Source: Tetradesmus obliquus
Lineage: Eukaryota > Chlorophyta > Chlorophyceae > Sphaeropleales > Scenedesmaceae
NCBI GenBank assembly: GCA_030272155.1
Contig: CP126204.1
Location: 2,037,501 to 2,101,500, forward strand
Direction of reading: 5' to 3'
Length of the DNA stretch: 64,000 bases
Shown here: in pieces, positions 3,772-63,758 of the stretch
Position numbering within the stretch: the stretch's first letter is position 1
How the letters are laid out: every line of letters starts with the position of its first letter
Made by a program: the position numbers and the translations under genes
Notes under the pieces: generated by a model
Database searches by the model: none
What the model was told of the DNA's origin: nothing
Seen by the model: the letters and a program-made list of their open reading frames with translations, nothing else

Positions 3772-3830
3772 TCTGCATCAAAGTAGGCATCCTCCCCGTC
3801 CTGAGCTTGCTGCGCCCGCATGCCTCAGGC
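3772..3830 (-). repeat. duplicate of the CCDC97 C-terminus behind the stop
   Basis: On the minus strand this reads AQQAQDGEDAYFDAE-stop. It closely matches the true end AQQAQDAEDAYFDAD-stop at 3891-3940. It lies downstream of the real stop, so it is a 3' UTR copy unless an alternative terminal exon is used. Confidence 0.75.
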
Positions 3831-3890
3831 GCAGAATCGATGCCCTCAAGTTGTGTGCAACTTGAGAGGCAGAGCCTGCCGATACGGCTG

Positions 3891-6569: not shown

Positions 6570-8423
6570 ATGGCAGCCCAGCTGTATTCAAACACGCAGT
6601 TGGCCCAGGCGCTGTATGAGGTCCTGCAGGAGCTGGTTGCTGACGGCAAGGTGCCAGAGGAGTTGGCAGTAGCCACCCTGGACCAGGTGAAACACACAGG
6701 AACAACTTTGGTGCTACCACGTGCCTTATATCCTGTGCTCCACTGCAATGCTGCGCTTGCTACCTAAGCTGAACTCTGAGCCGTGGCTTCTGCCACTTGT
6801 GAAGGTGAAGATGTGTTAAACGTCCGTGCGCCGGCAACACCTTCTGCTGACATGCTGTCTGCCCTGCTGCTGTGGTGCAATCACGGTCCATGGCGCCTTT
6901 CACTTGGCCTCAGCTCGATCAGGTAACCATGATCTGCAGCTGCGCAACTCGCAGCCCACACTGTAGTATGCATTCATCTTGACATGATTGTGCAGCGTTG
7001 ATATTGTGGCGGCAGCAGCATGCAGGACAATGCAGATGACAGCTGCACTGCTGAGCCTGTGTGTTCCCACAAATCCAGTGCGTGTCAACAGAGAGGCTGC
7101 ATGCTGTGTCATGCGAGCATGCCAGCGTTGCATGTGTTCGCAGCGTGCAGCGGCTCATCAGCTCTGCAGCAGCCACTTTGAGAGTTTTGAGCTATTACTC
7201 GACATGCTGCTGTGCAGTGTGATCCTTCAGCAGCTGCCTAGAACCACAACGCAGCCTTCCTCACCTGCCAAATTGTTGTAAATGCCGCCTGATGTAATTT
7301 CATGTTTTTGCTCGCAGTCCATCCTGAGTGCGCTCAAGAATGAGATCCCCGCAAAGAGTGAGGTGAAGGGCAACCTGGACACCTACAAGTACTACGACAA
7401 CGTGAGCAGACGTGATGTATGATGTTGATTGCTTGTTCAATGCAGAGCTGCCGCAAGCAGTGGTGCTGTCGCAGCCACAGGCAGTGGCATGGGGGTGCAG
7501 GTACCCACAAATACTACGACAACGTGAGCAGCAACATCGCCCAGCACCAGCACCTGATGTAGCTTATATCATTGATATTATACGTTAAACTGCATTTGGC
7601 TAAGCCTCTGAAAGAGTTGCAGGAAGCACACTTTGGAAAATCATAAATCCAAACATAATGCTTCACTCCCTGTATGGCTTGCATGCAACCTTATGTGTTA
7701 AAAACACCTCATGTATCACCCAGCAAACACCTTCTGGTTACTTCACAACATGTACGTCTCGCTGCAGGTGTGGCAGTTCACGCTGTCTGATGTGGCCTTC
7801 AAGTTGAATGTCACACCGTTATCATGACTCTCACTATCTGTCACACCACTTGTCACACTTGTTATCACACTCCCTGTCTCGCTGCAGGTGTGGCAGTTCA
7901 CGCTGTCTGACGTGGCCTGCAAGCTAAATGCCGCTGGCCACCCTGTGTCACACATGACACGCCACGCTAACACAGTTGTTACATTGGTTACATGCTGCAG
8001 GTGTGGCAGTCTGACGTCTCAGCCCACGTGTTTGGTGTGCCCTGCTGACTGTGACACACTGTGTTTGTGTTGTCTTTTCACGCTGCAGGTGTGGCAGTTC
8101 ACGCTGTCTGACGTGGCTTTCAAACTGAACGCCGCTGACCACCCCGTGTTGCATTGCATGTCACACTAACACAGTTGTTACATTGGTGACACGCTGCAGG
8201 TGTGGCAGTCTGACGTGTCAGCCCACGTGATTTGGTGTGCCCTGCTGACTGTGACACACTGCATTTGTGTTGTCTTTTCACGCTGCAGGTGTGGCAGTTC
8301 ACGCTGTCTGACGTGGCTTTCAAACTGAATGCCAGCGGCACCGGGTCCCTCAAGAAGGCCCCGGAAGTGACGTGCGACAAGGCCAAGATCGTGTGCGTGG
8401 ACATCAAGCTGGCGCCGCAGTAG
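6570..8423 (+). CDS. TOA2: transcription initiation factor IIA gamma subunit
   Basis: Exons 6570-6686, 6914-6922, 7318-7401 and 8289-8423 give 114 residues, the usual family length. The protein starts MAAQLYSNTQLAQALYEVL, contains GNLDTYKYYDN|VWQFTLSDV (the conserved TYR.CDNVW region) and ends in KAKIVCVDIKLAPQ, all TFIIA gamma landmarks. TFIIA gamma pairs with TFIIA alpha/beta, binds TBP-TATA in the nucleus and stabilises the preinitiation complex. The 9-nt micro-exon CTCGATCAG (LDQ) sits exactly where the family has FDK. Without it the conserved helix would be three residues short. All junctions are phase 0. The intron before the last exon carries three copies of that exon's 5' edge. Confidence 0.9.
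7502..7523 (+). repeat. copy of the TFIIA exon 3 donor edge
   Basis: ACAAATACTACGACAAC|GTGAGCAG repeats the real exon 3 end at 7385-7401 about 120 bp downstream, within the intron. Confidence 0.7.
7768..8188 (+). repeat. three intronic copies of the TFIIA last-exon acceptor edge
   Basis: Copies begin after GCTGCAG at 7768, 7888 and 8099. Each repeats about 40-50 bp of the exon starting at 8289 (GTGTGGCAGTTCACGCTGTC) and then diverges into intron. The last copy belongs to a roughly 195-bp unit (7977-8174) repeated at 8175-8333, so intron and exon edge were duplicated together. Confidence 0.9.
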
Positions 8424-8510
8424 CTGCATTGCAGATGTGCCGCAGCAACGACCTTAAGTCTAACACCTACGAGAAGGTGGCTGCAGTCGAGCACTGCACG
8501 TAGCGCCGAC

Positions 8511-8541
8511 TTGTGGGTGGACATCAAGCTGACGCTGCAGT
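8511..8541 (+). repeat. copy of the TFIIA CDS end behind the stop
   Basis: GTGGACATCAAGCTGACGCTGCAGTAG repeats the real end (GTGGACATCAAGCTGGCGCCGCAGTAG, 8397-8423) about 115 bp downstream, stop included. Confidence 0.8.
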
Positions 8542-8545
8542 AGCA

Positions 8546-12021: not shown

Positions 12022-14375
12022 GCAGCAGAGCTGACTGCCGCTCGTGGCATGCCGCTGCTGCTGGGCCTGAAGCAGCTGCCTGCTGGTGCCCAAAGCTTGA
12101 TGGGGTGGCAGGTGCTGCTGTGCGGCAGCAACGAGGCAGTAGGCACAGTGGTGCAGGTGAGCCTTGAGCTGTAGCTGTCAAACCCCAGTCAAGACGTATC
12201 CCCCAAAACTCAACACCTTCCCAAGCCATATCATATGCACTTCAAAATGAGGACGGTGTTTGGTTTGGGATGGTGCAGGTGCAGCAGCTGCCCTCCTACC
12301 CGCTGCTGCGCGTGACCAAGCACAGCACGCTGCAGCCGTATGGCTTCAAGGGCAGGGAGGCGCACAGCATCCCGCTGGTGCCAGCCATTGCTGACGCGCT
12401 CTACCCCAGGCAGCGAGTGCTGCTCATCACGCCGCCGCCAGGTCAGTAAGAGACGGTATCGTCCCTTTTGTATCTAGGATCTTGCAAAGGTTCTGCATCC
12501 TGTGTAGCAGAGGAAGGCAGCAACGTGCAGTGGACTGCTAGCACATGGCTGAAGAGGCAGCACATTCCCTTAGGCCTGGCCTGCTGTCTTGCTTTGCCTG
12601 GGCTAAATCATGCTGAAGATGGCTTCTTAGTCACACATCACCTGAGCTGCTGCTCGTGTTGCCGTTGCTGCTTTGACAGTCTACATACAAACGTGTACGC
12701 ACATGCAATTGCATTGCTGCAACTGCTCGGCTGCTTCCCTGCAGACTGGTTGGGGGTTGAACAAGCCGGCATCTTGTAGTATCAAGTCCCTGAGGTAGTG
12801 CCCGTGGTAAGAATTCAGCTCTGAGAATTTGCTGCACCGTACTGCACTGTCCTGTCCTGCAGGCCTGTTAGACCTGGGCAGGCGGGAGCTGCTACTGTCT
12901 TTCCTGTCAACGGAGCTGCTGCAGTATGCGCCGCTGCTGCCGCACCCGGCAGGCGTGGCTGGGCAGCTGCTGACTGACGTGAGGTGAGCTGTGGCCCCTT
13001 TGCTGCTGGTATAACCAATCCTTTTAGGATAAAAGGTTTTGAATAGGTTTGATTATGCTGTACATCTACATCACTTTTGAGCTAGCTGATGTTGGACTGC
13101 AGCAAGTCATGATGAGTGGTGCTGTCCTGCGTGTGAACTTGCCGTACGTCATTGTGGTCATCATGCTGCTGCCTGCTTGCAATTGCTATGCACTGCCCAC
13201 CACCTGAAAGCAGCTAGCGTGTTGCCGGGTGCTGCTGTTGCGGCAGGTGCATGCCAACACGGCAGCAGCTGCTGGCTGCAGGCAGGCAGGACCTTGTGGG
13301 GCTCATCAACAAGGTTGGAGGCTTCACTGAGGTGTGTGCCGGCTGTTTCATTTTATGCGGCCGGTTGCTGCCCTCTGTGCGCTTGCATTACTGCATAGTA
13401 TGTCGTGTGTGATCAACAAGGTTGGAGGCTTCACTGAGGTGAGGGGTGGCTGTTTCATTTTATGCGGCCGGTTGCTGCCCTCTGTGCGATTGCAAGCACT
13501 ACATCGTATGTTGCTTTTGATCAACAAGGTTGGTGGCTTCACTGAGGTGCGCGGTGGCTGGCAGATGCTGAGGATTGCACCACCAGCTGCTGCTGTCTGT
13601 GAAAAGTGCAAAAACAGGGCAGGCGGGCAGGCATCTATTGTGTGCGCTCTAGGTCTCTGTTTGGCGCGCGGCTTTTTGGCGTGAATGCCAGGTGAATAAT
13701 GAATGGCCGCTGCTGCTGCTGCTGGCCTCTGCTGCACCGTCAGGCCGCGCTGCTACTGGGGCTGCGTGCCACGCGTCGGCCTGCTGGCTATTGGGACTCA
13801 CATGAGGTGATGGATGCAGAGATTAATGCATTTGTGGCAGGTGCGGGGCCTGCTGGCTATTGGGACTCACATGAGGTGATGGATGCAGAGATTAATGCAT
13901 TTGTGGCAGGTGCGGGGCCTGCTGGCTATTGGGACTCACATGAGGTGATGGATGCAGAGATTAATGCATTTGTGGCAGGTGCGGGGCCTGCTGGCTATTG
14001 GGACTCACATGAGGTGATGGATGCAGAGATTAATGCATTTGTGGCAGGTGCGGGGCCTGCTGGCTATTGGGGCTCACTTGAAGTGATGGATGCAGAGATT
14101 GATGCATTTGTGGCAGGTGCGGGGCCTGTGGCTATGTGTCAGCCTCACCAAAAACCACTTGCGACTTGCATGTGTACTGCTGCAGACCGCTGCAGCTGAG
14201 TTGATGGCTGCACGATGGTGTTGAGCCAGCTGTGTGGATGCTGTTGACAGATGCGGTGAGGTGAAACAGGCGGTTGGCGGCGGTGCCTGGGGTGGTCGCG
14301 CGCTGATGCATGTGTAGATGGTGACTGAGCTGTGTGGATGCGTCACGGCAGCAAACAGAGCACCTAACACTGCTG

Positions 14376-14412: not shown

Positions 14413-16576
14413 GTCACCCGGCTGACGGTCCCTTAGGCTGCTGGACTGCTCTGCCGCTTGACGATGAAGGAGAGGAGCAGCAGCAGCAGGATAGGCAGCT
14501 GGCTGCTACTGCTGGCAGTGATGCTGCTGCTGCTAATGGTGCTGATGTAGCAGTGCAGCACCGCCAGCCAGCGTACTACTACTACAACATGGTGGGTGGC
14601 AAAAATCAGTGCAGAACACGTAGTACTGATTATGGCGCTTGCAAAGGTGTGGGCTGATAGCACCACTGTGATACTACAGCTCTAGTACCAGTAGCACAAA
14701 CATCACGGCAGTGCATAGTGGTGTGGTGTGGTGCTGGTATGATGGCAGCTAAATGCCATGCAGCCGAGAAATCAACAGCAGAAGCTGACAGCTGCGCTTG
14801 ACGTCGGAGGTTTCACTTCTGCTGGCCACGCTGTCATGCTGGCTACATTATAGTGCAACCTGTACAACAGCAGCATGCTTTTAAGCTCAGGCTGCCAGCT
14901 ACAATTCGTGTGCCACTGTTCTGTGTGCATATGGCTTCTCTGCCAGCCAGGCCACCCGGAGCATCCTGTGGGAGCTGCCTGCTGCTGCACGGCCGCTGAT
15001 GCCCGCTGGATTACAAACAGCACAGCAGGATTCCGCAGCAGAGGCAGCAGCAGCAACAGCAGCAGGAGGTTCGGGGGATGCCAGCACTGCAAGACGTGCG
15101 ACACCGCCAGAAGCACAGGAAGAAGTTGAACACCTTGATCATGATGGTGAAGATGACTATGAAGATGACTATGAACTTGACAGTGAAGATAGTGAAGACG
15201 AGGATGAAGATGAAGATGCGGCTGATGAATATGAAGAAGCTGCCCTCGACAGGCAGCGCAGCATTGGCTTGGGCGCAGCTGCTGCTGCTGGTGTTGCTGC
15301 TGCTGGGCTCAGCAGCAGGGCAGTGCGCCGTGCGCTGCTGGCACTTGCAGGGGAGCGGGTGATGCCATCACAGAACAGCATCAAGTCAGGTGAGGACAAA
15401 AGATGCAGAGACATTTGGTTTACTTGTCGCATGCGCTGCCTGCTGCAGCTGGCGCTGCAAAACCTGCCATCGCCCTTTTCTGCTTAGTCCTTGCAACGAC
15501 GTGTTGCATGCTGTACATGTTTGTGATGCTGCAGCTGGCCGCTGGGACTTGCATGAAGCCATCACTGGTGCCGGCGGCTACAAGCACATCGGCCAGCTGC
15601 TGGGACGGCGGCCCTCCTGGCCTGTGCCACGAGACAATGGCGGTGCTAATTATGCAGCAGCAGCACTGATAACAAGCCTGCAAGAGCTTGGAGAGGCACT
15701 TGCTGCTGCTGCTGCTGATTGCGGTTGGGGTGCTGGGCAGATGCCAAGTGTGGCGCAGCTGAGGGAGGCGGGGCGGCAGGATCTCCTGCAGGTGAGCTGC
15801 TGCTGCTGCTGCTGCTGCTGCTGAGGGTGGCTGGGGAGCTGGGCAGATGCCGAGTGTGGCGCAGCGGAAGCAGTCTGGGCGGCATGACCTCCTGCAGGTG
15901 AGCTGCTGTCACTGCTTCTGCTGCTGCTATGGCCGCAGCTGCTGCTGCAGCTGCTACTGCTGCTGCTGCTGAGGGCGGCTGGGGAGCTGGGCAGATGCCG
16001 AGTGTGGCTCAGCTGAAGGCGGCGGGGCTGCAGGTGACATCTCTTGCAGGCAACATTGGGGGTGTTCTGTGTTGCTGTACGGCTGTTTGGTGTGGCCGGT
16101 ACACGGTACACTTTCGCACTACGGCAATGCGCTTCTGCAAGAACAGCTTGGTTTGGTGGTGGGGTTTGTACAGGCTGAGCTTGACGCACAAACTGCTTAA
16201 CCCTGCCCTCTCCAACCTCCCTGCCGCACACACTGAACTTGAAAGCGTATGCGCTGCTGTCCTGCCTCTGCGCATGCTGCGTGCTGTGCCGCAGTCGATC
16301 CTGCACCACGGCGGCCGCCATGCAGTAGCAGAGCAGCTGGGGTTGCACTGCAAGCGGGCAGCGCCTGGTGCAGCAGCTGGTGCTACAGCCGAGGAGCTTG
16401 CGCAGCAGCTGCTGCAGTTCATGATGCAGCACGCACCTGACGAGCTGGGGCTAGTAGGCAAGGACAGCAGCAGCAGCAGCAGCAGCAGCACAACATTGGA
16501 CAGCAGCAATGTGCCAAGTGCTTTGGTTGGCAGCAGTGCCGGTGACAGCAGCACCACGACTGCAGCTGACTGCAAA

Positions 16577-17722: not shown

Positions 17723-19659
17723 ATGCTGCCCTCGCTGCAAGGAGAAGTCACATTCGGAACCATACACTCACAGTTCACCCCCAAAAGCCTATTGCATTCA
17801 GCAAGACGGCTCAGGCCGCATGTAGTGCGAGCTTCGCAGCAGCAGCAGTCCTCCACTGCTGTTCCGAGTGCTGCTGCCGCTGGCTCTTTCCAATGGAGCA
17901 GCAACGTCTCCCGACGCATCAATCTTGACCTGGCTATAGAGGAAGCAGTCGCTGGAGCGCTGAGCAGCAAAGCAGCTGGCTGGGAACCGGAGCTGGCAAT
18001 TGTCTTCCTGTCATCTGCTTATGTGGCAGAGTATGATCAGCTGGTGCAGCTGCTGCGGCAGAGGGTGCCATCGTTGAAGCATACCTTCGGGTCAACGGTG
18101 GGTTTGACCAAGCAGGCCATTTCACTCTATGCCGTGTTGCAGTGTCCTGCAAGAGAAAGCGCACTGCTGGGTCAGCCCAGCAACAGGACTGTTTCCAGGA
18201 CTCTGCATGCCTGTTTCTTAGCTGCTGCCGGCAGGTATAGAGTTGGCTTGATGTTGAACCTGTTACGTTACCTCTGTGTCAAAGCTTGGGTGCCTCAGCG
18301 TCTGCACCTGCAACCAGCCAACCTGTGTAGCGGCTTGCTGAAAAAGTACGCCACCGCTCCTGGCTAGTTTATAACCACCTGCATGCCTGCTCGCCTGCAG
18401 GGCTATGGAGTGATTGGCAGCACAGCAGAAGGCCCAGAAGAAATTGAGCATGCGCCCTCAGTCAGCATCACACTCGGGTCACTGCCGGGCGTAGACGTGC
18501 GCATCACACACGTCACAGCGCAGCAGCTGCCGGACGGAGGTGTGTAGCTACAAGTTGAAGGGTTGGGCAACAGCGTAGCGCAGAGTTGTGTGCATCCTGC
18601 AGCTGTTCTGTGTATGGTTATTGCCTGCGTGCTGAGCCGAGGCTAGGTCATGCAGCAGCCGTCATGCGGGCTTCAGTGAGCGCAGCTGGAGGGTCACACG
18701 TTTGTGAGGAACGTGGTTGGTTTGCGTGGTTGCCGGCATTCGCTTGCAGCAAAACTGGCAGGAAAGCATCTCACCACTTGTGATGCGACAATCGCAAGCC
18801 CTGGGCAGGGCTACAACCCATAACAGGCAGTGCACAGGCGCCAACGCACTGCAAACAGCAAGCATCACAGCACCGCCTGAACATGTTATTTGCTTTCCCG
18901 TGCTGCTGCAGATGCACCTCCCCAGGAGTGGGCGCAGCTGCTGGGTGTGCAGCTGCAGAGCACCCATCCCAGCAGCTTCATCCTGCTTGCTGACCCAGAG
19001 TTCTCAAAGCTGACAGAGCTTACAGCTGGCCTGGACTTTGCCTTTCCGGCAGCAAACAAAATCGGTGAGCATGGGTGGCTTGGGGTGCTTACGCGCAGCG
19101 GCGAGCGGCGCAATGTAGCAGTGGTTGCAGCTGTAGCAATGCTAGTAGGACAGCGGCGGGGCGTTGGCCATGCATGAGTAACAGCAGGTCCAGCGGATGG
19201 CAGCAGGCTGGGTGTACAGCTGCACAGCACCCACCCCAGCAGCTTCAGCTTGCTTGCTGACCCAGAGTTCACAAAGCTGACAGAGCTCACAGCAGGCCTG
19301 GACTTTGCCTTCCCAGCAGCAAACAAGATCGGTGAGGCAAGCCAACGATGAGACGGATGCAGCTGCTGCTGACTCTGAAGGGTAATATGCTGCAAGCAGC
19401 GGGTCGGGTGTTCACCCTGCAGTGGGTACTCCTGCAAGTGTAGCAATGGCAGCAGTTTTTGCCTGTACATGCTTTTGCCGCTGACAGCCACCCACCTACT
19501 GCTGCATGCTGCTGATGGCGTTGCATTTGACGTGAATCATTGTTCTTCTGTGTGGGTGTGCTGCACAGGCGGCCTTGTCAGTGCAGGCAAGCTGAGTCCT
19601 GCAAGAGCCATGTTTGCCTGGAGCCAGCAGCAGCAGCAGCAGCAACCAGAGCAACAACC

Positions 19660-19694: not shown

Positions 19695-22364
19695 CACGTG
19701 GCATGGTGCGCACGGGTGCAGTGGTGCTGTCACTGCAGGGTCCAGTCGAGATGGAGCTGCTTGTTGCGCAGGTGAGTGTCTGGATGCCATAGTACCATAC
19801 AATGTCACTGAAACCTCATCTTGTTTGTCCTGTTGCCTATGAAACTTATGCAGCTCTGCAAGATAAGTTGGGGTGCCCTCAGACGGCGCAGCCATTCATA
19901 TGTTTGCACCTTGCCTGCTTGTACTGCTACCGCAGGGCTGCCGGCCGCTAGGCGAAGCCGTGTACAGCATAGACAAGCTGGCGGGTCATAGCAGCGTGGT
20001 GCTGCCGCTGCTGCTGCTGCTGCTGCTGCTGCTGACACCTTTGCTGCTGCTGCTGCTGCTGCTGCTGCCGCTGCTGCTGCCGCAGGGCTGCCGGCCGCTG
20101 AGCGAAGCCGTGTACAGCATAGACAAGCTGGCGGGCCACAGCAGCGTGGTACTAGGCCTGCGGGATGCAGCAGGGAGGGAAGTAAGCCCAGTGGAGGCAC
20201 TGCAGCGGGAACTGCAGCAGGTGAGCCCGAAACTTGAGCTGGACACAGGGAGCATTCTTGCAATGGTCAGCTTTGCGTGCGGTATGCCATGCACTGCACG
20301 TAGACACATATACGTGGCGGTTGTGGCATTCGCCTGCGCTGTAGGCCGCCACCAGCAAGCAGAAGTTGCTACAGCTGCTGGCCAACATAGCACGTTGCCT
20401 CTTCCTAGTAATGTTGTCATTGAACCGTGCACCGCATTTGTTGCATTGTCATTCACCTGCGCTGCTGTCGCAGGCCGGCACCAGCAAGCGGGAGCTGCTG
20501 CAGCTGCTGGCCAACATAGCACGTTGCCTCTTGCTAGTAACATTGCCATCGAACTGTCCACCACATTCATTGCATTGCCATCGCCTGCGCTGCTGTCGCA
20601 GACTGCCACCAGCAAGCAGGAGCTGCTGCAGCTGCTTGCCAACATAGCACATTGCCTCTTCCTAGTAACATTGTCATCGAACCATCCACCGCATTCATTG
20701 CGTTGCCGTCCGCCTGCTGTCGCAGGCCGCCACCAGCAAACAGGAGCTGCTGCAGCTGCTGGCCAACATGGCGCTGGGGCTCTGCCCAGAGACACTGAGA
20801 GCAGCAGACGGCCCGCAGCCTGAGGCTCAGGACTTCCTGATAAGAGGCATGGCCATTGATAAGGCTGGCTTCATGGTGGTGGGCGATGCTGTGCGGGTGG
20901 GGCAGCGCGTACGCTTCATGGTGAGTGTGTGATTCTGCATGTTTGACCATGTTTGACCATGATTGACCAGCTAAGCAATGCTGCACCTGGGCTGGGGTGC
21001 ATGGTGGTGGGGGATGCTGTGCGGGTGGGGCAGCGCGTACGGAAGTGTTTGACCAAGTTTGACCATGTTTGACCAGCCAGGTGATGCTGCCCTGAGGCCG
21101 GCTTCATGGTGGTGGGCGATGCTGTGCGGGTGGGGCAGCGCGTACGCTTCATGGTGAGTGTGCGATGCTTCTTTTCACCACAACATAACGGGTGGGGTGG
21201 ACAGTAGCTGTTGCGGCAATGTGAGGCTTCATGGTGGTGGGGGATGCTGTGCGCGTGGGGCAGCGCGTGCGCTTCATGGTGAGTGTGCAATTCTGCCTAG
21301 TTGACCAGGTTTGACCATGGTTGACCATGGTTGACCAGCCAAGTGATGCTGCATTGAAGGCTGGGGTGCATGGTGGTGGGCGATGCTGTGCGGGTGGGGC
21401 AGCGCATGCGCTTCATGGTAAGCGCAAGCTGCCTGTTTGATCATGTTTTACCGTGGTTGACCATGTTTGACCAGCCAAGTGATGCTGCTTTGAAGGCTGG
21501 GGTGCATGGGGTCAGGGATGCTGTGCGGCTGGGGCAGCGTGTGTGCTTCATGGTGAGCCAAAGCTGCCTAACCATGGTTCGACCATGGTTGACAAGGTTC
21601 TGACCAGCCACGGCTGTTGGTGGATGACACCTACATGCAGACGCATCAAGTGCACTCCCTGCTCTGCTGCTGCCGCTGCTGCTGTCAGGTGCGTGACAGG
21701 GCAGGTGCGCAGCAGGACCTTGCAAGCCACTGCATGGCATACAAGCGGCGGCAGCTGGCAGCAGCACTGTCAGGCCCAGACGCCAGCAGCAGCAGCAGCA
21801 GCAGCAGAGGCCAGGCATTTGGCATGCTGCTGTTCAGCTGCAACGGGCGCGGCATGAACCTGTACGATGAGCCTAGCTATGACAGCAGGACACTTGCGAG
21901 CTACATCCCTGTGCCTTGCGGCGGCTTCATGTGCAATGGTGAGTGCAGTGGGCCTGCTGCCGGGCATTGTGTGCGGTCTCTGCAGCCTCATAAGTGCTGA
22001 GTAATTAAAATTTTTGAGGTGTCAGCCAACCTGGCGGCATGGAGCTGCACTTGACGATCAATGGGACTGTCAGTGAGTGCCGTTGACCTGCATTGGAAGG
22101 CGTATTTACTTCAACTGATTTGTACAGCGTCCTGCAAGCCATGCTCAAGTCACTCCATGTGCGCTGCTGACTGCCTGACCTGCAGGAGAGCTTGGCAGTG
22201 TTGGCGGCACTACACACTTGCACGGCTTCACTTGCGCAACAGCAGTGCTGAGGGCAGCAGCTCCCAGCAGCAGCAGCAGCAGCAGCGGCGGCGACAGTGC
22301 TGGCAGCAGCAGCGGCAGCAGCGCTGACGGCGGCAGCGGTGGCAGCAGCGGTAGCGCCGAGTGA
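17723..22364 (+). CDS. FIST and FIST_C domain protein
   Basis: Exons 17723-18097, 18401-18539, 18912-19064, 19569-19771, 20086-20220, 20726-20920, 21689-21938 and 22186-22364 give 542 residues with exact phases. The start at 17723 gives a transit-like N-terminus (MLPSLQGEVTFG..ARRLRPHVVRA); the frame upstream lacks ATG. The FIST part spans about 60-290 (INLDLAIEEAV, ELAIVFLSSAY, HTFGSTGYGVIG, LADPEFSKLTE, NKIGGLVSAG). FIST_C spans about 330-510 and ends with LLFSCNGRGMNLY, GGFMCNGELGSVGGTTHLHG. FIST domains are proposed ligand-binding sensor modules in bacteria and in FBXO22; no F-box is seen here. The C-terminus is a Ser/Gly tail. Possible TGTAA signals lie at 22395 and 22448. The introns are rich in duplicated exon edges. 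Confidence 0.88.
19188..19331 (+). repeat. complete duplicate of FIST exon 3, candidate alternative exon
   Basis: It lies between exon 3 (18912-19064) and exon 4. It is flanked by an acceptor (AACAGCAG) and a donor (ATCG|GTGAGG). It is 144 nt, a multiple of three with the same entry and exit phase as exon 3 (153 nt). It stays open throughout: GPADGSRLGVQLHSTHPSS.., against DAPPQEWAQLLGVQLQSTHP.. in exon 3. Differences after the first third are few and mostly mild. Confidence 0.8.
19936..20002 (+). repeat. copy of FIST exon 5 acceptor edge
   Basis: GGCTGCCGGCCGCTAGGCGA follows CGCAG here, as in the real exon at 20086. The copy runs 67 bp and then enters (CTG)n that leads directly into the real acceptor. 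Confidence 0.85.
20345..20770 (+). repeat. four tandem units around the FIST exon 6 acceptor
   Basis: Copies of GCCGCCACCAGCAAGCAGGA begin at 20345, 20474 and 20602 before the real exon at 20726, spaced 129, 128 and 124 bp. Each unit includes about 45 bp of exon and 80 bp of intron (TAGCACGTTGCCTCTTCC..). Substitutions accumulate, and one copy has TAG instead of CAG at the acceptor. Confidence 0.9.
20866..21552 (+). repeat. six tandem copies of the FIST exon 6 donor edge
   Basis: The real end (GGCTTCATGGTGGTGGGCGA..CGCTTCATG|GTGAGTG, to 20920) recurs ending near 21041, 21153, 21278, 21417 and 21552. Between them is intron made of TTGACCATGGTTGACCAGCC-like repeats. Several copies keep a GTGAGT or GTAAGC donor. 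Confidence 0.92.
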
Positions 22365-23729: not shown

Positions 23730-25050
23730 TCACATGATGAAGTTCCGGACCGCGAACTTCCACTCGCCGTTCTCGTTGACCAGCTTGTCCTCTATCATGC
23801 CAGCAGCCAGCAGCACCGGAGGGTTCTGCGCCTTATGCAGCAGCCGGTACGCTGTCACTTTGGCTGCACGCAAGCCATCTGGCTCGACCACTATGTTGCA
23901 CGTGAGGTGGCGGTTGCCTGCAGCACACATAAGTTGCGAACGCAAAGCACATGAGCAGCCGGTATGCTGTCACCTTTGCTGCACGGAGGCCATCTGGCTC
24001 AACCACTATGTTGCACGTAACGTGGTGGTTGGCCGCAGCACACATAAATTGCGAATGCAGAGCACATGAGTAGCCAATACGCTGTCACCATGGCTGCCCG
24101 TAGGCCACCTGGCTCTAGCACTATGTTGCATGTGAGGTGGCGGCTGCCTGCAGCAGTGACAGCGTAAATCGGCAGAGCACTTGCGCCATGTGGTTCTTCG
24201 CACTGTCGAAGTACTCCGGGATTGGCTGCGCGCCTTTGACTGCGCTGCTGCCAAACCTGGAAGTCCCAAATCTCGCCCGCACAACCCCGCACACCTGCTG
24301 CCGCACACTATTGATATTCCAGGACGGGCTGCGTACCTCTGACTGTGCTGCTGCTCAACTCCGGAAACCCAAAACTCGCAGCCACAGCCCCACCCACCTG
24401 CTGCCATCTGTTTCACACTTTGAAAGTACTCCAGGATCGGCTGCACGCCTTTGACTGCCCTCAGGGGCACTTTGGGATTGCTCATGTCAATGTTGACAAC
24501 GGCATCGCTGCTAAAAAAAGAGCCCAGCCTCTCCTGCTGCCCCAGGTTGAGCACCTGGTCAAACCTGCGGTCAAACATGGTGTTACACGCATGTTACATC
24601 TGTTGCGTGGAGAAGCAATGCTTAGCATGCACGTTTTGAGAGGAGGGCATCCACGCAAAAGGGACTCTGCAGAGAACAGATGCGTAGTATTGCGATGACG
24701 GTGAAAATGGGAGCAGCTGCACACAACACTCATATGAGCCAACACACTTCAGCTGCTGATGACGCATCAAGCAGCATGCTGTCCTCTGGAAGCACACCTG
24801 CACCAGGGCAACAGCTGCTGCATGCATGCGCACCCTGTTGCTGTGCCACAGCTGCAGAGTCGCTGCTGCTTCTTACTATGTTATGTTTTATAAATTCTAT
24901 CGCTCTGGTGCTGTCTGCTGCAGCCTGAGCCCCATACCTATGGCAAACTTCCATGATTTCAAACTTGTCTTCTGTTGACAGCTCATAGCTGGTGTGGTTG
25001 AAGTGTGGCGGGTTGGGGCTTGTGCTGTAGCGGCATACAGCGCCCTGCAT
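23730..25050 (-). CDS. SnoaL-like domain protein
   Basis: Three exons: 25050-24938, 24564-24398 and 23917-23730. Phases close, giving 155 residues. It reads YELSTEDKFEIMEVCHR|FDQVLN..RLGSFFSSDAVVNIDM, then GVQPILEYFQ, then NRHLTCNIVVEPDGLRAAK and GMIEDKLVNENGEWKFAVRN. This order (N-terminal helix, DAVV strand, H..NIVVE strand, closing ED.L....G.WKF) is the SnoaL/NTF2-like alpha+beta fold of polyketide cyclases, dehydratases and many uncharacterised proteins. No substrate can be assigned. The length is typical of a stand-alone domain. The start ATG is plausible but not proven. Both introns carry copies of the neighbouring exon edges. Confidence 0.75.
23953..24160 (-). repeat. two copies of the SnoaL exon 3 acceptor edge
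   Basis: The exon 3 start (minus strand CAACCGCCACCTCACGTGCA.., 23917 downward) is repeated at about 24042-23953 and 24160-24069, spacing about 115 bp, with rising divergence. Confidence 0.85.
24206..24352 (-). repeat. two copies of the SnoaL exon 2 donor edge
   Basis: The exon 2 end (minus strand, GGCGTGCAGCCGATCCTGGA..) recurs with changes near 24352-24290 and 24260-24206. These copies are more diverged than the exon 3 copies. Confidence 0.7.
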
Positions 25051-28720: not shown

Positions 28721-31700
28721 ATGGCAGCAGCACTGCGTGGTGCCGTTGTGCGTGCAGCACCTTTCCAGCAGGTGCGTCAATTGCTGCAGCTTGATGCAGT
28801 AGCATTTTTATACGTTTGTTAAATAGCTTCCATCGGCTGTAGGCAGTGCATGCAGCTCACGTGTGGCAGATCCCGCTCACTGCACTTCTCGATTGTCTAC
28901 CTGCAGGTGCGCAAGCTTGCTTGCCCTGCTGTCGGCCGCTCTGTGAGGCCTGCAGTGGCAGTGCGCTCCGTGGCCACCAAGGCCCCTGAGGTCGCTCACT
29001 ACAGCAACGAGGAGATCGTGAGTGCCACAGCAGCAGCACTACAGCCTTCCTCAGCTGCAGCAGCTGAACACTGAATCGTCGTTCACGCAGCTGCAATCGG
29101 TCGTTGACAGTGATGTGATGGATTGTTCCTGGTGCATGCAAGTGCTGCAGCTGTAGCTGTATGATGTTGCATGTCATGTGTGCTGCACATGGCAAGCCAC
29201 GAACGCAATCGCCAGCACTCACATTGACCGCGCATTAGCATGCATTCAGTTGCAATCATCAACGGTTAGTACCAGCAGAGGCAGCTGCAGCTGGCCTGCA
29301 GCTGTGGCAGCACCAGGCTCACATCACCCACTGCTGCCGCAGATGCCGTGTGCCACTAGCAGTGGTACTCAGCGTCAGCAAGTGCTAGGCTGATTGCTAT
29401 GCGCAGGCCAGCACGAAACATGATGAACATGATGAACATGAGTTTCAGACTAACAATATATGTGGTGTGCTGCTGCAGGGCCCCAAGGAGACCTTGGAGT
29501 ACCGCATTGCCTTTAAGCAGAATGGTGAGCTGCAGCAGCAGCAACGGCAGGCTAGGACAGTAGAGGCAGCTGCTGCAGTTTCGCATCAGGCGGGTGGCAG
29601 ATGCCCAGATGACCCTCAATGCATCCTCATCGCAACAGAGGAGGCTGTGCTGTTGTGCAACCATTGCAAACAGCAGTGCTGCAGCTGTGGTATCTTCTAT
29701 CTGCCGCTCCCAAACTCACATCAAGTCTAGCATTCTCCTACGCGCTCCTCAAACTCCTCTCCTGCTGCTGACCTGTTCATGCTGACCAACAGACAAGGTC
29801 ATCTCCTGCTGGCACGAGATCCCGCTGTGGGCTGGCAAGCCATGCAACTGAACAACTCTGCTGCTGCTGCTGCTGCTGCTGCCGCAGACAAGGTCATCTC
29901 CTGCTGGCACGAGATCCCTCTATGGGCTGGCGAGGACGAGCTGCACTTCATCTGCGAGATCCCCAAGGAGACCAGCGCCAAGATGGAGGTGGCCACGGTG
30001 AGGATGATAAGGTCTCATATATGTTGGTAACACTGACATTGTTTTGATGTTATAAATGACACTTCTATTTATCATAAACCATTGGCAAGCCTTCCTGCGT
30101 TTTCTCTTGATGCAAAGGCACATTGATGTCCTGATTCATGCGCTGCAGGATGAGCCCGGCATGCCCATCAAACACGATATCAAGAATGTCCAGCCATGCT
30201 CATTTTTCGATGCGCAGTTATATCCACCAATGACTTCATCTTTTGCATTTATGCGCCGCAGGACGAGCCCAGCACGCCCATCAAGCAGGACACCAAGAAG
30301 GGCAAGCACGACTGACCCATCAATACTTGCCAATGCAACACACCATATTCAACATGCATTGTCTCAGTAATGTGCGCTGCAGGACGAGCCCAGCCTGCCC
30401 ATCAAGCAGGACACCAAGAAGGGCAAGCCGTGCTCCAGGAATCAATGCCATGACACACTCACCAATGACTCAATTTATTGCATTGACGCACCGCAGGACG
30501 AGCCCAGCACTCCCATCAAGCAGGACACCAAGAAGGGCAAGCTGCGCTTCTACCCCTACAACATCAACTGGAACTACGGCCTGCTGCCGCAGACCTGGGA
30601 GGACCCCAGCCACAAGAACGAGGACCTGGGCGGCGTGGCGGTGAGCGCTGCTGCTGATGCTGCTGATGCTGCTGCACATGGGTTTGGGAATGTTGCAAAC
30701 CTGGATGTTGCGTGTGCTGGCTTTGTGGTTGTGGCTGTGTTGTGAAAAGCGCCGCTGCTGCAGCGCCGCTGCAGGTCAGTGTGCCTCTGTGCAGTTTCGT
30801 GGCTATGATGTGGTGTTGAGTGTGGTACTGTAGTGGTGTGGCGGTCAGCGGCTTGTTACTGCTTTGGTAATGTTACCAGTGCAGCCAGGTGTTGATTCAC
30901 ACCCCCCAGTGAAAGAAACCTCAATCACACACACAAATGTCAGACCAACCATATGGTGATCTCCTACCGGAGTTCTGCAAGTTTGAGGGGAGCTCTCTTT
31001 GCAGCTATGCAGCACACTGCTGCTGTGTTTCTATCAATATCTATGTTAGATGCATGTCTGTAGTTGCAATGGAGTGCCGGATTGCATGTTGAATGCCTCG
31101 CGTTTCATTTCAGCAGCCGTTCTCCCCGATGAAATTATCTCAATCACACACACTATCCTGTCAGACCAACTCGTGGTGATCTCCTACCGGTGTTCTGCAA
31201 GTTTGAGGGGTTGCCATCACACATCAAAAGCATGCATTATGTTATGTTGTTATCAAGTGGGGCTGGCACACTGCCCTACTTGATAACAACATAACTAAAT
31301 GCGTGCTGCATGCCCCGCGCAAGGAGATGTTACCCGGTGGACGCCGTGGAGGACACCCTCGTGGCTTCACCTTACCTTGCTGTTGTTGTTGCATCGATAC
31401 GCAATACATCTGCAGGGTGACAACGACGCCGTGGATGTGGGGCGCTGACAATGGCAAGGCCGCTGTATTGCTGCTGCTGCTGCGCAGGGTGACAACGACC
31501 CCGTTGACGTGGTGGAGATTGGCTCCGCGCAGCTCAAGATGGGCGGCGTGTACCGCGTGAAGCCGCTGGGCGTGTACGCCATGATCGATGATGGCGAGCT
31601 GGACTGGAAGGTCATCGCCATCAACAGCGCCGACCCCAAGGCAGCAGCAGTCAACAGCCTGGAGGACGTGGAGAGGTGGGTGGCGTGGCGCTGTGCGCCT

Positions 31701-40604: not shown

Positions 40605-40635
<31 letters not shown>

Positions 40636-53612: not shown

Positions 53613-58699
<5,087 letters not shown>

Positions 58700-59157: not shown

Positions 59158-62100
59158 ATGGCCGCGGCTGGCCTGTACCATGACAGGGGCCTGGTAAGTG
59201 CTTTGAAACATCACTTTCAAAGCAAACACGTAGCAGAGCATAGGGACACGTCCAGGTGCAAGGGCTATGCGATGCACCAGCACGCTCTATCACCACGACC
59301 ATGCTCTGTGTACATGTGCTGTCCTGCAGTCGCCATACCACAGCCGGCTGCCAGGAGACTCGCCTTACACGCCAGCAGGGCAGCTGCAACAGCACTTGGA
59401 TGAAGACCAGTACTATGAAGACGCAGACAACAGCAGCAGCACACCCTTTGCCAGCAAGGACAATCTACAGTCCAGCTGCCAGTACTTGGAGCCAGTCCTG
59501 CAAGGTCAGCATGAGCTCTGCATGTGTGACAGTCCTTTTGCTCGCCACCATTCAGCATCACATGCTGCAGCACGTGACACTGGCAGCATGCTGCTGGCCT
59601 ACAATGAGGTTGCTTGCCGACTGCCCCATCAGCCAGCCAACGCCGCAATGACCATCAAGTGCAGCTGCCACAGCGTGGCAGTCCTGCGCAGTACCTGGCT
59701 GCTGCAGCTATCAGTACAGCCAGTGATCAACTGCGTCCGCATGACGCTACAGTGGCAACCGCATGCCTGCCATTTGTCAAAGTCTGCAAGAGACTCCTTC
59801 ACTGGCTGTCAGCGATTGTGTGTGAACCCTGCTGACAGCGTCGTGCTGCCATATTTGTGCCGTGCAGACCTAGGAGTGAAGCAGTGGCAGCTGCACGGCG
59901 GCGACACAGTAGCGCTGGTGAATGCCCTGTATGAAGTTGTGCAGCAGCAGCAGAGCGTACTCGGCAGCAAGGAGCATCTGCAGGTGGGGAACAGCAGGCA
60001 AGCCGCGTATCATGTGTGTGAACACAGTTGGCAGCAGTATGCTCGTGCGCACATGCTGGCTGCTGGCCTGTAGCACTTTTGCCATTTGCCTTCGCGGAGC
60101 GTCTGTGCCGGGTCCTGCATGGTGGCGGTATCCTGTAATAAGTCGGCGAATGGCTTTGACTTGATGTTGCGGCCGCGCCCGTTGCTGGCGGCAACCACGG
60201 ACACAGTCATGCAGACGCGCATGGACCGCCGTACCGCTCTTTCCAAGTAAGTTTCATTGTACACCTGCAGGATGAGCTGCAGAAGCTTAGGGTTGATGCA
60301 AAGACGGCAGACAAGACCATTCAGCGGCTGCAGTGCCAGAGCGAGCAGAAGGCGCGGGAAGCTGGCGGCCTCAACATCAAGGTGTGCTGACATGAGCAGC
60401 TGTGCGTGTTTGCAGCCTGTTGTTGCGTGCTGTGTGCTCTGCCGGTGTTCATGTTATGTGTGGTGTCCCCTGAAATAGGAGCAGCCATGTGCAGCGTGGC
60501 AATGGGTTCACAGTAGGTGCATGCTCGACACTGCCCATAGTGTGTGTATAGGCGGCAGCAGCCCTGGGCACATCATGTGGCACTGTTCGTGCAGTGGGCC
60601 TCGCCACCAGCCCACGCAGGGCTGATCTTCTGATGTGTTCGTGACGCCCTTTGCATCGAGGCTGAAAGGCTGACTGTGCCCCTCGTCCTCTCCTGTGGTC
60701 CCTGCAGCTACGGCAGCTTCACGCTCGGCGCATTAATACTAGTGCGTGCAGAGCTCATTCTCATAAATGATTGTGACTCTCTGTGCACTGACACTCCGGC
60801 CAATCATGTCCGCCACTGTCTCCTGTACCTCGCAGCTACGGCAGCTTGATGCCTGGTACAGGGACGAGACAGAGCGCTGGGCAGCAGAGCGGGACCAGCT
60901 CGCTAAGAAGTGTGCACAGATGGAGCAGCGCCACGTGCAGTTCCAGCACGAGCTGCGGCGCAAAGACACAGAGTTTGAGAAGCTGCAGAAGCAGCTGGCA
61001 GCGCGGCTGGGGGCTGCTGCTGTGGCAGGCGGCAGCGCCAGGCGCAGCGTGGGCAGAAGCGGCAGCAGCAGCAGCGGCATGCAGGCGACCGGCAAGCTTA
61101 CGACAAGCGGCAGGTGGGTTGTTTTCTGGGCAACGTTGGCCAGATGTGGAGAAACACCTTTGGGACAGCAAGAGGAGAGGTGTGTGTATGTTTAGCAGCT
61201 CCTGCAGCGTCAGGCCCATTGCTGGCGCTTTTGCTTGCAGGATCTGCCGCACCAGCAGCATACATGCAAGCTATGTAAGGATACTGTGCGCTGCGGCCTT
61301 TATGGTGTTGCATGGCTGCCAGCTTGTTGTGTCCTGACTGAGAGGTTTACTGTCCCCGTTGATTGGCTGGTGCCATGTGTCCGTGGCTGATTTCCTGCAG
61401 GAATGGCACAGTCAGCAGCAGGAGCACAGCAGCAGCCATGCCAGCAGACACCCGTCGCGCAACGAAAGCAGAGTTGGAAGAGATTCACAAGGTGGGCTGC
61501 TGCTGGCCCCTACTGTCCTTGTCAACGCTGCCTTTGCCAGCCGGCATGCTGCACAGTGACCAACGAGCTGCACTTAGTAGAGGCAGCAGCAGCAGTGCTT
61601 GCTGCTCTTGCAGCACTGTGGCACAGCAGGAACCAAACGCTGGTGCTGTTGTGGTGGCCAGCGCATGCCAGCACACGGCCAGCTGCCAGTGACAGCTGCC
61701 ATGCCTGTGCCGCCTGGTTCTGCAGCGCATACAGCAGTGCCTGCCGGCGCCAAGCCAAGGATCGGCGACTGTATATTGCACGACATCGTGCCGTAACTTG
61801 CACATGGCACAGCATCTCGCTGCACCCAGCTGGTTCCTACATCCTGCCGCAACCCACACCACTTCCCTCTTATGTCGCTTTGTTTGTTTCTGGCATTGCA
61901 AATGGTGCTGCTGCCATCACCGCCGCCATGTGGCGTTTCGCCTTTGCAATACTGCAGAGAGTGGTGGAGGCGTTCGAGGCAGACAAGCAGGAGCTGCTGC
62001 AGGACAATGCCGCGCTGCGCAAGGCGCTGGTTGATCTGCAGGTGAGAGCAACAACACAGTTGGGATAGTGTGGCGCTGTGACATGGTTGCTTGACACAGC

Positions 62101-63758
62101 TGTATCCTATCATACAGCTATCACATAATTGCTGGCGCTCAGCTGCGTGGGACCACAAGGCAGTTCTGCAGCATGCATGCCAAGTGCCAGCCTTCAAACC
62201 ATGGGCTTTGAGTCCGCAGTTTGGGGCTGCCGCAGGCCAGGAAGACGAGCAGCACTCATGCCTGCGTGCATGCGTGCATGCGTGCGTTTGCAGGCAATCT
62301 TTGAAGCTTGGCGATCGATGGCCATTCCGCCATGCTGCTAGCGGACGTGTTCACATGTGTCTTGTGCTGCTGCGCCTGCTGCCGCCATCATCTCCAACCA
62401 TCTATTGCAGAGGGAACACGTAGATCTGCTGAACAGCAGCCACGCCACAGCAGCGCCATCGCCGACAGCAGCAGCAGCAGCCAAAGCTGGCGCTAAAGGC
62501 CTAGGCTGCTCAGCAGCAGCAGCGCTGGGTGGCAACCCTATCGCAGCGCTGCAACAGATGCAGAGCAAGCTGGACGCGCTCAGGGTGCGCAAGCAGCGCA
62601 TAACAGGTGAGGGCTTTGGGCTGTTGTGCTCCGTCCCCATGTGCTGTGCTCAAACTCACTGCGCACGGCTGCAGTTCCACATGCGCAAGCTGCAGCGCTT
62701 GCAGCAGCATGGACATAAGTGTTTTGAAAGCGCCAGTTCCACATCCTGCTACTCCGCATCGGCGTGTGATCATTGCTGTACAATGCTGTGCTCTGTTCCT
62801 TAGCAGGTGGCGGGCCTTAGCAGGTGGCGGGCCTTAGCAGGTGGCGGGACAGAGGCCGCCCAGCTTGCACGACAGCGCCCATTTGAATGCCTGCTGAGCA
62901 GCAGCTGCTGTGAAGGTAGCTGCCTGTCATCATCTGCAGCAGCTGCCAAGCCATGCTGAGCTTGCCATAATGTAGCAAAGCTGCAGCGCTGTTGGCATTG
63001 TGGCTGGCGCTGAACTCACTGTGGCTGCACCTGCTTTGTGCTGTTGTGTGGTGCTCCATGCCGCTGCTCGGCAGGTGGCGGCGGTGCTGCGGAGCTGCAG
63101 CAGCTGCACCAGCAGGCCCAGACTGCGGGTGAGCGCCTGCTGGTGGTCAAGCTGCTGGAGGCATGCAACATCCTGGATGAGCAGGACGCGGTGAGTTGTG
63201 CAGTGCTACCTGCACTGTACCATACAATGTTACATCATGTCTTACGTTTGCAGCCGCCTCAAGGGGTGGAGCTCCAAACAGGTGTATACATGAGGCTGTG
63301 GTATGGGAGTGAGCAGGGAGGCAGTTGAGTTGCTGTCTTATTGCGCCTGTGGTGTTGCCAGGCTGGGTAGCAGCGTATTCTGCTGCACGTTGTATGCGCG
63401 TCGTCGGCTGCATGTAGTGTCACAAGATGACTGGCTTGCTTGATGCACTGTAACAAGTGGCACTCAACATGCCGACTGCATGCAAGCATGCAGCCGAGCT
63501 GCCGTCAGCGGAACACCGATGCAGTGGCATGGCTGGATTGATTGGCACATGCGCAGCTGCACTGACAAGGTAGCAGTGGAACTGCACTGCGTGATTGCAA
63601 TGTGTGCTGCACGATGACCACCTCACGGCCTGTAGCATAGCACACGTCTGCACACCTTGCATGCAGCGCCAACCGTAACTCGCTGCGCCCTGCCTGCATC
63701 TTCGCTGCAGGCGCTGAGCTCGGCAATGAAGGCGCTGCCCAGCATGGGGCATGTCTGA
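59158..63758 (+). CDS. ADIP/SSX2IP-like coiled-coil protein
   Basis: Ten exons: 59158-59193, 59330-59504, 59868-59983, 60271-60381, 60836-61113, 61401-61491, 61958-62041, 62411-62606, 63075-63190 and 63711-63758. All phases close, giving 416 residues. Order: MAAAGLYHDRGL start; DLGVKQWQLHGGDTVALVNA and LYEVVQQQQ; a long coiled coil (DELQKLRVDAKTADKTIQRL, WAAERDQLAKKCAQMEQRHV, HELRRKDTEFEKLQKQL); then RVVEAFEADKQELLQDNAAL RKAL; and a C-terminal helix (LLVVKLLEACNILDEQDA). This follows the afadin/alpha-actinin-binding (ADIP) domain of SSX2IP and yeast Msd1, which anchor microtubules at centrosomes and basal bodies. A basal-body or spindle-pole role here is inferred from the family. The 3' UTR may be short: TGTAA at 63774-63778. 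Confidence 0.82.
60708..60728 (+). repeat. copy of ADIP-like exon 5 acceptor edge
   Basis: CCTGCAG|CTACGGCAGCTT, 128 bp before the real exon start at 60836 (CGCAG|CTACGGCAGCTTGATGCC). The surrounding intron (CTCTCCTGTGGTCCC / GTCTCCTGTACCTC) is also similar. Confidence 0.75.
62802..62850 (+). repeat. three short tandem copies of an acceptor edge
   Basis: TTAGCAGGTGGCGGGCC is repeated three times at about 17-bp spacing. It resembles the real exon 9 start GGCAG|GTGGCGGCGG at 63075, which lies about 250 bp downstream. Confidence 0.7.

Follow-up and report, generated by a model that had tools for sequence, protein, structure and literature searches.

Local tandem copies of exon edges and coding ends in Tetradesmus obliquus genes and their possible origin from diverged haplotypes

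Several genes in a 64,000-nucleotide stretch of the Tetradesmus obliquus genome (the window) carry direct copies of an exon edge together with adjoining non-coding sequence. An earlier note had attributed these copies to a genome-specific duplication process that builds decoy splice sites. The questions raised by this locus are whether the copies mark splicing as such, and from what source and by what process they would have arisen.

Abundance and arrangement of the copies

The sample analysed was 314 kb, made up of the window and 50-kb blocks from contigs 1, 2, 3, 4, and 7. Self-BLAST of the window, run after short-period repeats had been masked, gave 56 repeat pairs at E ≤ 1e-5, all of them direct and no more than 1.5 kb apart, with no inverted repeats at this threshold. 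At E ≤ 1e-4 there were 96 local direct-copy arrays in the sample: 26 in the window and 70 in the five blocks outside it (18, 9, 10, 22, and 11). Arrays were present on all six contigs sampled, at a density of one per 3.3 kb (about 30 per 100 kb), so the copied exon edges are real and extend beyond the window. Extrapolated to the whole genome, this is perhaps a total of about 30,000 sites.

Pfam identified CCDC97, TFIIA gamma, SNO/PDX2, pyrophosphatase, DEAD helicase, and FIST among the genes that the earlier note had listed as affected. In TFIIA gamma the C-terminal domain was over the Pfam cut-off and the N-terminal domain under it; in the PDX2 gene, SNO/PDX2 was found and SnoaL was under the cut-off. 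The ADIP-like gene (58-63 kb) did not keep its place on the list, as it had no array at E ≤ 1e-4; a 7.1-kb search gave a 31-bp candidate there (60689/60819, E = 0.012). Exons outside the Pfam-checked genes are ab initio predictions by a gene finder trained on the same 314 kb from sequence alone, and it called some of the copies exons.

Table 1. Copied exon edges and coding ends in the window
Feature	Position	Strand	Remarks
CCDC97 coding-end copy with TAG in 3' flank	3761..3827	-	real copy 3884-3951, spacing 123; Pfam
TFIIA gamma real 3' exon edge and donor	7381..7409	+	copy with GTGAGCAG at ~7503-7531; by reading and alignment; its shortness kept it below the BLAST threshold
TFIIA gamma acceptor array	7756..8334	+	5' edge copies 7768, 7888, 8089; 8289 taken as real
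TFIIA gamma coding end with TAG	8392..8544	+	8392-8424, copy 8512-8544
Donor-edge array, 107 bp x 2.4	13305..13560	+	real edge predicted at 13331
Donor-edge array	15721..16050	+	real edge predicted at 15747
FIST exon end with donor	18940..19336	+	92% copy, 267 bp downstream; Pfam
Acceptor edge and copy	19931..20149	+	spacing 150, CTG tract in between
Acceptor array	20324..20772	+	three copies ahead of predicted real edge 20726
Donor array	20854..21568	+	up to six copies
Acceptor array, SnoaL-like part of PDX2/SnoaL gene model	23839..24155	-	real exon predicted 23734-23863
Acceptor-edge copy and predicted real edge	29790..29934	+	29790-29839 and 29885-29934, spacing 95
Pyrophosphatase-gene exon acceptor array	30134..30548	+	four copies
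Pyrophosphatase acceptor array	31798..32276	+	copies 31831 (in-frame TAG), 31957, 32083; real exon 32217
Acceptor-edge copy and predicted real edge	34480..34598	+	spacing 89
Predicted real donor edge, copy downstream	35596..35795	+	spacing 120, 92%
Acceptor array	35971..36332	+	three copies
Acceptor-edge pair	36663..36911	+	spacing 178
Predicted coding end with TAA and 3'-flank copy	36966..37323	+	36966/37218, spacing 252
Donor-edge pair, predicted gene with helicase motifs	55399..55736	-	spacing 232
DEAD-helicase exon 56681-56829 donor array (DED1-like by reading)	56434..56736	-	two copies downstream on minus strand

The spacing of the arrays had a median of 122 bp (IQR 109-143), with a further hump at 200-280, and copy number reached six (family D15, 20858-21545); both agree with the 110-130 bp and the six copies first reported for the window. 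Spacing had no frame preference (11, 15, and 11) in 37 pairs in which the copy was not predicted as an exon, and fell into classes of 16, 17, and 7 in the 40 pairs in which it was. As to slippage at CTG tracts, inspection by eye of 31 two-copy break sites found no shared CTG motif. Long introns are reported for T. obliquus, with a mean of 462 bp (PMC5966456), and at a guess the arrays may bear on this. In the predicted gene models, introns touching an array were not longer than the others (median 200 versus 236), partly because copies miscalled as exons split introns.

Placement on coding/non-coding borders

A predicted exon edge was found inside 85 of the 96 arrays, compared with 52.9 ± 4.7 expected from random placement, and the best aligned pair alone contained an edge in 60 of 96 (expected 34.2 ± 4.2). 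These 85 arrays, set against 1078 predicted edges, correspond to about one edge in twelve (~8%). Arrays confined to introns were rare (5/96), and copies without a coding part were likewise rare. The repeated unit is about 120 bp, with about 50 bp coding and about 70 bp non-coding in terms of predicted exons; one copy remains in the gene, the other lies next to it within intron or 3'-flanking sequence, and likeness drops just beyond the splice signal. Three kinds of pairs were excluded before counting: those whose exon part was shorter than 20 bp, those that overlapped another pair of their locus, and those with a spacing over 200 (over 400 instead for the exon-part length count). The retained exon part had a median of 49 bp (IQR 34-65) in 273 redundant edge-anchored pairs, in line with the 20-70 bp proposed earlier. 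For exons of at least 150 bp it was 54 ± 17 bp (32 pairs), with the unit centred on the border, and its length was not uniform (KS p = 3e-6 versus uniform, 27 pairs with at least 35 bp).

The polarity and the splice signals also proved to be as the earlier note had described them. A predicted site was present in both copies of 31 of 103 pairs and in one copy only of the other 72. In these one-site pairs the look-alike lay downstream of the donor in 30 of 36 cases and upstream of the acceptor in 26 of 36, which puts 56 of the 72 on the tolerated side. Among 55 pairs with diverged introns, 51 had the same splice dinucleotide in both copies, as did 29 of 31 two-copy loci.

These results were compared with a neutral simulation of 2400 tandem duplication events, with ages uniform up to a maximum of 0.35 changes per site, which omitted exon-only, multi-edge, and intergenic events. 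If tandem duplications of about 120 bp struck at random and were visible at edges because of tolerance and ease of detection, the observed polarity is what tolerance predicts, and random placement strikes one edge and no more in 26% of cases. Intron interiors also had slightly more weak self-similarity at this spacing than controls (149 of 3844 windows at a score of at least 13, or 3.9% versus 2.7-3.1%), but this excess is small and was absent at a score of at least 16 in the same scan. By the edge count and the rarity of intron-only arrays, the arrays are enriched at exon edges over intron interiors, and their spacing is a preferred one. In the simulation, by contrast, 55% of the arrays detected were intron-only, the matched part of the unit was 1.0 compared with 0.51 in 43 single-pair arrays, and the simulated dinucleotide equality was 0.70. 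Plain neutral tandem duplication fails and is disfavoured; we consider it very unlikely, and the earlier statement that the pattern exceeds what is expected of neutral introns stands.

Copies were also found at stop codons in 3' flanks, in CCDC97, in TFIIA gamma (8392/8512), and at 36966/37218. These repeat the end of a coding sequence together with its stop codon rather than a splice site, so the coding/non-coding border, and not splicing, is the common factor. This bears on the possibility that an exon-edge copy with its splice signal may be selected for tuning splicing or RNA stability. Copies are conserved above the surrounding intron, their splice dinucleotides are mostly equal, and those lacking a coding part are rare; constraint on a copy could yield numbers similar to those of a diverged source. 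However, no splicing takes place at the stop-codon copies, donors and acceptors are about equally frequent (46 versus 44) and alike in size, and in pyrophosphatase the first copy contains a stop. There were also 14 indels in 1655 bp of copies, 13 of them with lengths that break the reading frame, although several lay where alignments end and a single poor locus supplied four. Selection of this kind is unlikely in our judgement, and a process that builds splice decoys as such is not supported, given the stop-codon copies, the balance of donors and acceptors, and the absence of a frame preference in the spacing of the 37 pairs above.

Divergence between copies and their possible source

A search of the whole genome with ten exons that bear copies gave 31 matches, 23 of them at the exons' own loci; of the eight off-locus matches, seven were to the DEAD-helicase exon (family members) and one was a 72% relative of another exon. 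Eight of the ten exons had no match elsewhere in the genome, and a paralogue was rejected as the source of the copies. For the pyrophosphatase region, off-locus matches fell only in simple-repeat stretches among the 40 scored of 779 candidates. The TFIIA gamma peptide had no relative among the genome contigs or viral contigs searched, and the Pfam model TFIIA_gamma_N matched nowhere in the genome.

The copies of two-copy loci differ much like two functional versions of one gene: coding differences are mostly at third positions, the intron is strongly diverged, the splice signal is retained, and the stop codon often is too. The third-position ratio was 4.66 (3.15-7.28) in 30 two-copy loci, compared with 1.54 in the neutral simulation, and 3.41 (2.53-4.77) over all 62 loci. 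The linked intron parts of two-copy loci were strongly diverged. Where the exon part was at least 0.95 identical, intron identity was 0.65 (0.92 in the simulation), which is far more divergence than neutral decay permits. The intron parts are nevertheless remnants of the same duplication as the exon parts, with homology at p < 0.05 in 14 of 30 two-copy loci (Fisher 2.4e-14) and 21 of 32 multi-copy loci.

Our tentative explanation, which we regard as quite possible while holding it short of probable, is that the duplications arose where homology between diverged haplotypes stops. A haplotype of the gene that had diverged from the resident one would be the source of the second copy. An exchange or a break repair involving such haplotypes would proceed along the conserved exon and fail on meeting the diverged intron at the exon border, and the ends would be joined in such a way that about 120 bp overlap. 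Longer arrays may have formed by later unequal exchange between copies, and unused copies would decay slowly. The diverged source is deduced from one genome sequence rather than observed.

Several results count against this haplotype origin. The third-position ratio was weaker in multi-copy arrays (2.61, 1.79-4.09). Over the first 15 bp or so from the donor, the intron parts of two-copy loci dropped to almost random identity, more steeply than the synonymous difference leads one to expect, and the divergence implied would be very high within one species. The synonymous share did not change steadily from the least to the most alike introns (0.46, 0.63, 0.51, 0.52, and 0.78), and the narrow size of about 120 bp is left without an accounted cause. 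Pairs in which the copy was predicted as an exon had a near-neutral codon pattern (0.056, 0.042, and 0.088), although the split into exon-predicted and other pairs is biased by codon usage, and the unsplit two-copy set was therefore relied on. Since the unpredicted pairs were the strongly coding-like ones, copies serving in place as coding exons were also rejected as a general account. Coding relatives found in block B4 were a poor yardstick: more than 80% exon on both sides in only three of seven inter-region matches, with weak third-position bias (3/5, 13/35, and 6/13 of the differences). Apart from these points, one shared age for all pairs was rejected, as differences per pair were over-dispersed (1.61 in 31 two-copy loci and 2.90 in all 86).

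Ordinary tandem duplication within one lineage, followed by repeated conversion of the copy by the exon while the intron part drifted, could account for the residual intron homology, which shows the unit to have been whole at one time. Several longer arrays with alike intron parts look self-made, and the multi-copy interval is near the value that conversion predicts. That value is a near-neutral ratio (1.54 simulated, about 1.9 at most by estimate), far from the ratio at two-copy loci, and the scarcity of intron-only arrays would be left unexplained; we find conversion distinctly unlikely. An assembly artefact, in which two diverged haplotypes or strains supplied pieces that overlap and were joined end to end, would fit two-copy loci in that they resemble two working alleles meeting where likeness stops. 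It can be given little credence: there is no N in the 314 kb, the assembly has 17 contigs, the arrays are too dense for joins if the reads were long, and partly decayed arrays of three to six copies and frame-breaking indels do not fit. Returning to the haplotype origin, a genome-wide process in which narrow (~120 bp) duplications on the border of haplotype homology each store a fragment of a diverged allele, and so record past exchange, is possible but doubtful.

Related systems and significance

Direct tandem copying of adjacent exon and intron sequence, as found here, is a mark of internal gene duplication across an intron-exon boundary. Such duplication is described in Gao and Lynch 2009, as represented by citing passages, and in PMC4974935 for potato RdRp, where a tandem segment over one exon-intron boundary, with its splice signals, was copied in a single event that gave a new intron. 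In contrast to that account, there are about 30 arrays per 100 kb here, with spacing that favours about 120 bp, and the copies are apparently unused, diverged like coding alleles, and present also at stop codons. The polarity fits one functional and one drifting copy, but for free copies that old the two-copy loci show too much conservation and too coding-like a pattern. Intron gain through tandem genomic duplication of AGGT, as reviewed in PMC3443670, likewise creates extra GT/AG sites inside genes; its expected mark, an intron that is a duplicated exon segment between two AGGT with ends copying the flanking exons, is all but absent here, since among 539 predicted introns 1 had it for one end and 2 for the other at 70% identity. 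Introners (PMC9860276) are also intron-bound and occupy many sites per genome. Here, in contrast, no sequence was common to many unrelated loci in the window, blocks, or exon searches, as introners or mobile elements would require: there were no distant repeats in the window at E ≤ 1e-5, and comparing the sampled blocks with one another gave a single match at E ≤ 1e-10. Nor do the arrays resemble minisatellites, which would show no preference for gene features and a unit alike throughout. Splicing decoy exons are exon-like pieces in introns that bear splice sites and are not known to be copies of the neighbouring exon, whereas the sequences here are direct copies of it and occur also at stop-codon ends. 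No description of the pattern appeared among the papers that searches of the open PMC literature brought up; that literature lacks most subscription papers. The linkage of third-position-biased exon parts to strongly diverged intron parts in two-copy loci is an addition to the earlier note.

On either reading, gene prediction in T. obliquus is affected. If the copies are selected, they would constitute a splicing or transcript-end feature on about 8% of predicted exon edges. If instead they are fragments of another haplotype, one genome sequence would be a readable archive of past allelic exchange. Splice borders would then serve as borders of recombination as well, owing to the divergence of introns but not of exons, and it would become directly testable how intron divergence, recombination, and gene architecture are linked.

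Arrays and gene models in the sampled sequence

Arrays of local direct copies were sought in the window, which is part of contig 14 in a 104.66-Mb assembly of 17 contigs, and in five 50-kb blocks from contigs 1, 2, 3, 4 and 7, for a total of 314 kb (GC 0.567-0.584 across the sampled sequences). A simple gene finder trained on the sampled sequence itself predicted 65 genes with 539 introns and 1078 edges, with some blurring of the edge counts by copies that were themselves predicted as exons. Its consensus was CAG/GTGAG for donors and TGCTGCAG/ for acceptors (slash, exon border). The acceptor consensus in the predicted introns of the window and blocks resembled a CTG repeat, (TGC)n TGCAG, instead of a plain pyrimidine tract, and CTG/CAG tracts were abundant in this genome. 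Six proteins from the window gene models were checked against Pfam, three of which had been spliced or trimmed by hand to exclude copies. At one Pfam-found locus, 143 of 144 residues aligned between the predicted exons and PDB chain 1fc6 (photosystem II D1 protease) were the same. This chain comes from Scenedesmus obliquus. The gene model of a predicted carboxyl-terminal protease (L026) contained the peptide VKLRREKVALSPLYYTAL as a tandem pair, probably a further exon-edge copy called as an exon. For T. obliquus UTEX393, a published report gives 108 Mb, 57% GC and a mean intron of 462 bp (PMC5966456). The sampled genome is taken as that of Tetradesmus (Scenedesmus) obliquus or of a close relative.

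All 56 repeat pairs found in the window at E ≤ 1e-5 were direct and all lay within 1.5 kb. At E ≤ 1e-4, near pairs in the six sequences together numbered 183 direct and 1 inverted, and far pairs 18 direct and 12 inverted. The copies are of tandem origin. The near direct pairs grouped into 96 arrays, 26 in the window and 70 outside it, a density of one per 3.3 kb and 9.6% of the sample. Their median spacing was 122 (interquartile range 109-143), with a further hump at 200-280. This count takes in a 69-bp repeat, which is a recent coding repeat unlike the exon-edge copies, and a gene-internal duplication in block B4, to which stretches elsewhere in that block are related. The sole match between blocks at E ≤ 1e-10 was a 57-bp sequence, perhaps a small dispersed element, and no introner-like sequence common to several loci was found in the 314-kb sample.

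Coordinates of individual repeats and of copies at predicted coding ends
Feature	Sequence	Coordinates	Description
69-bp unit x 5.2	window	13778-14135	98%; 23-codon unit; nearly all within a predicted exon
Gene-internal duplication	block B4	39163-41037	1.1 kb aligned, 74%, offset 793 (L016-L020 joined)
Intron-only pair	window	30920-31210	spacing 219, 88%; among just five arrays without a predicted coding part
57-bp match	window; block B2	2359-2415; 22611-22667	98% identity, opposite strand
CCDC97 coding end	window	3761/3884	stop codon kept in both copies
TFIIA gamma coding end	window	8392/8512	stop codon kept in both copies
Predicted coding end	window	36966/37218	stop codon kept in both copies
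Predicted coding end	block B4	18925/19050	stop codon kept in both copies; 98% across 50 bp, likeness stopping at TAG
Predicted coding end	block B1	35732	stop codon lost
Predicted coding end	block B3	41397	stop codon lost

Position and shape of the copied unit

The arrays prefer coding borders. A predicted exon edge was present in 85 of the 96, versus 52.9 ± 4.7 (maximum 64 in 300 draws) when units of equal length were placed at random outside arrays, and the best aligned pair alone carried an edge in 60 versus 34.2 ± 4.2. The 11 edge-free arrays were intron-only (5), exon-only (1), or gene-end or mixed (5); among random units of array size, 36% were expected to be intron-only and 21% exon-only. 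The predicted site lay in only one copy of 72 pairs and in both copies of 31 more. Among the single-site pairs it lay in the upstream copy for 30 of 36 donors and in the downstream copy for 26 of 36 acceptors, so that the look-alike is mostly on the harmless side.

Median likeness reached 49 bp on the exon side of the edge and 13 bp on the intron side (273 edge-anchored pairs, which are redundant). In 31 two-copy loci, identity on the donor side fell from 0.92 right before the border to 0.85 in intron bases 1-5, and then to 0.49, 0.40 and 0.34. On the acceptor side it was 0.87 in the five intron bases next to the exon and dropped to 0.59 and 0.33 beyond them. Where the exon was at least 150 bp long, the exon part measured 54 ± 17 bp (32 pairs), a narrower spread than uniform placement gives. 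Intron parts were more alike than introns at other edges (p < 0.05) in 14 of the 30 two-copy loci and 21 of the 32 multi-copy loci, and to judge from this likeness they are remnants of the same duplication as the exon parts. The residual likeness indicates that the complete unit was duplicated, its intron part having diverged afterwards or already beforehand.

Neutral duplication and codon pattern

Plain neutral duplication does not account for the arrays. In a simulation, 2400 random duplications of 60-165 bp and uniform ages, excluding exon-only, multi-edge and intergenic events, were placed on the sampled sequence and put through the identical search, with the copy and introns changing neutrally and the real exon for the most part synonymously. 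Intron-only arrays made up 55% of those detected, versus 5 of 96 observed, and the matched part was a median 1.0 of the unit versus 0.51 (43 single-pair arrays). Where exon-part likeness was at least 0.95, intron likeness was 0.92 in simulated pairs (77) versus 0.65 in observed ones (23). Splice dinucleotides were equal in 0.70 versus 51 of 55, and the third-position ratio was 1.54 versus 4.66 (30 two-copy loci). Within non-coding segments, weak likeness at array spacing was in small excess, 149 of 3844 scanning windows scoring at least 13 (3.9% versus 2.7-3.1% in controls), with no excess at scores of at least 16. Since 9 of 22 two-copy intron parts attained a score of 13, the scarcity of interior arrays is not due to detection alone.

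At the three codon positions, copy and exon in 30 two-copy loci differed at rates of 0.042, 0.038 and 0.187, a difference of coding type, and both copies at these loci seem to have a coding history. The third-position ratio was 3.41 in all 62 loci and 2.61 (1.79-4.09) in the 32 multi-copy loci; a looser selection of 85 pairs gave rates of 0.058, 0.047 and 0.146. In this looser set, 154 codons differed synonymously and 134 changed the amino acid. Two findings count against a simple account: pairs whose copy was predicted as an exon had a near-neutral codon pattern, and the synonymous share had no steady trend along intron likeness. The copies are non-coding at their present location, because there was no frame preference in spacing among pairs whose copy is not a predicted exon, 13 of 14 indels in copies were frame-breaking (several at alignment ends and four at a single poor locus), and a stop interrupted the first of the pyrophosphatase copies. 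The best fit to these data is a coding sequence with an evolutionary past elsewhere, later placed beside the exon.

Copies at stop codons and proposed origin

The main rival to the origin proposed below is that selection maintains the copies. Twelve arrays (the TFIIA end and all 11 that lack a predicted edge) were read for stop codons, and several spanned a predicted coding end, with Pfam support for the CCDC97 and TFIIA genes only. A splice-based function cannot explain the stop-codon copies; a border at which conserved coding sequence gives way to free non-coding sequence can.

The closest known kinds are internal gene duplication across an intron-exon boundary, of which a potato gene is an example (PMC4974935), and the gain of introns through tandem genomic duplication (PMC3443670). 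Predicted introns here almost entirely lack the hallmark of the second kind. No report of the exon-edge copy pattern was found among the open PMC papers that the searches listed, judged by titles and the openings of abstracts.

A paralogue was ruled out as the copy source for ten tested exons, except for DEAD-family relatives of one exon. Given a coding history elsewhere, another haplotype of the same gene would then be left as the source. This source is inferred, as are the failure of exchange and whatever sets the narrow size. Diverged haplotypes would exchange or repair DNA in a tract running along exons, which would break off at the border where homology stops, and end joining would close the failed exchange, leaving an overlap of ~120 bp. 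Unequal exchange between copies may next build up the longer arrays, in several of which the intron parts are alike.
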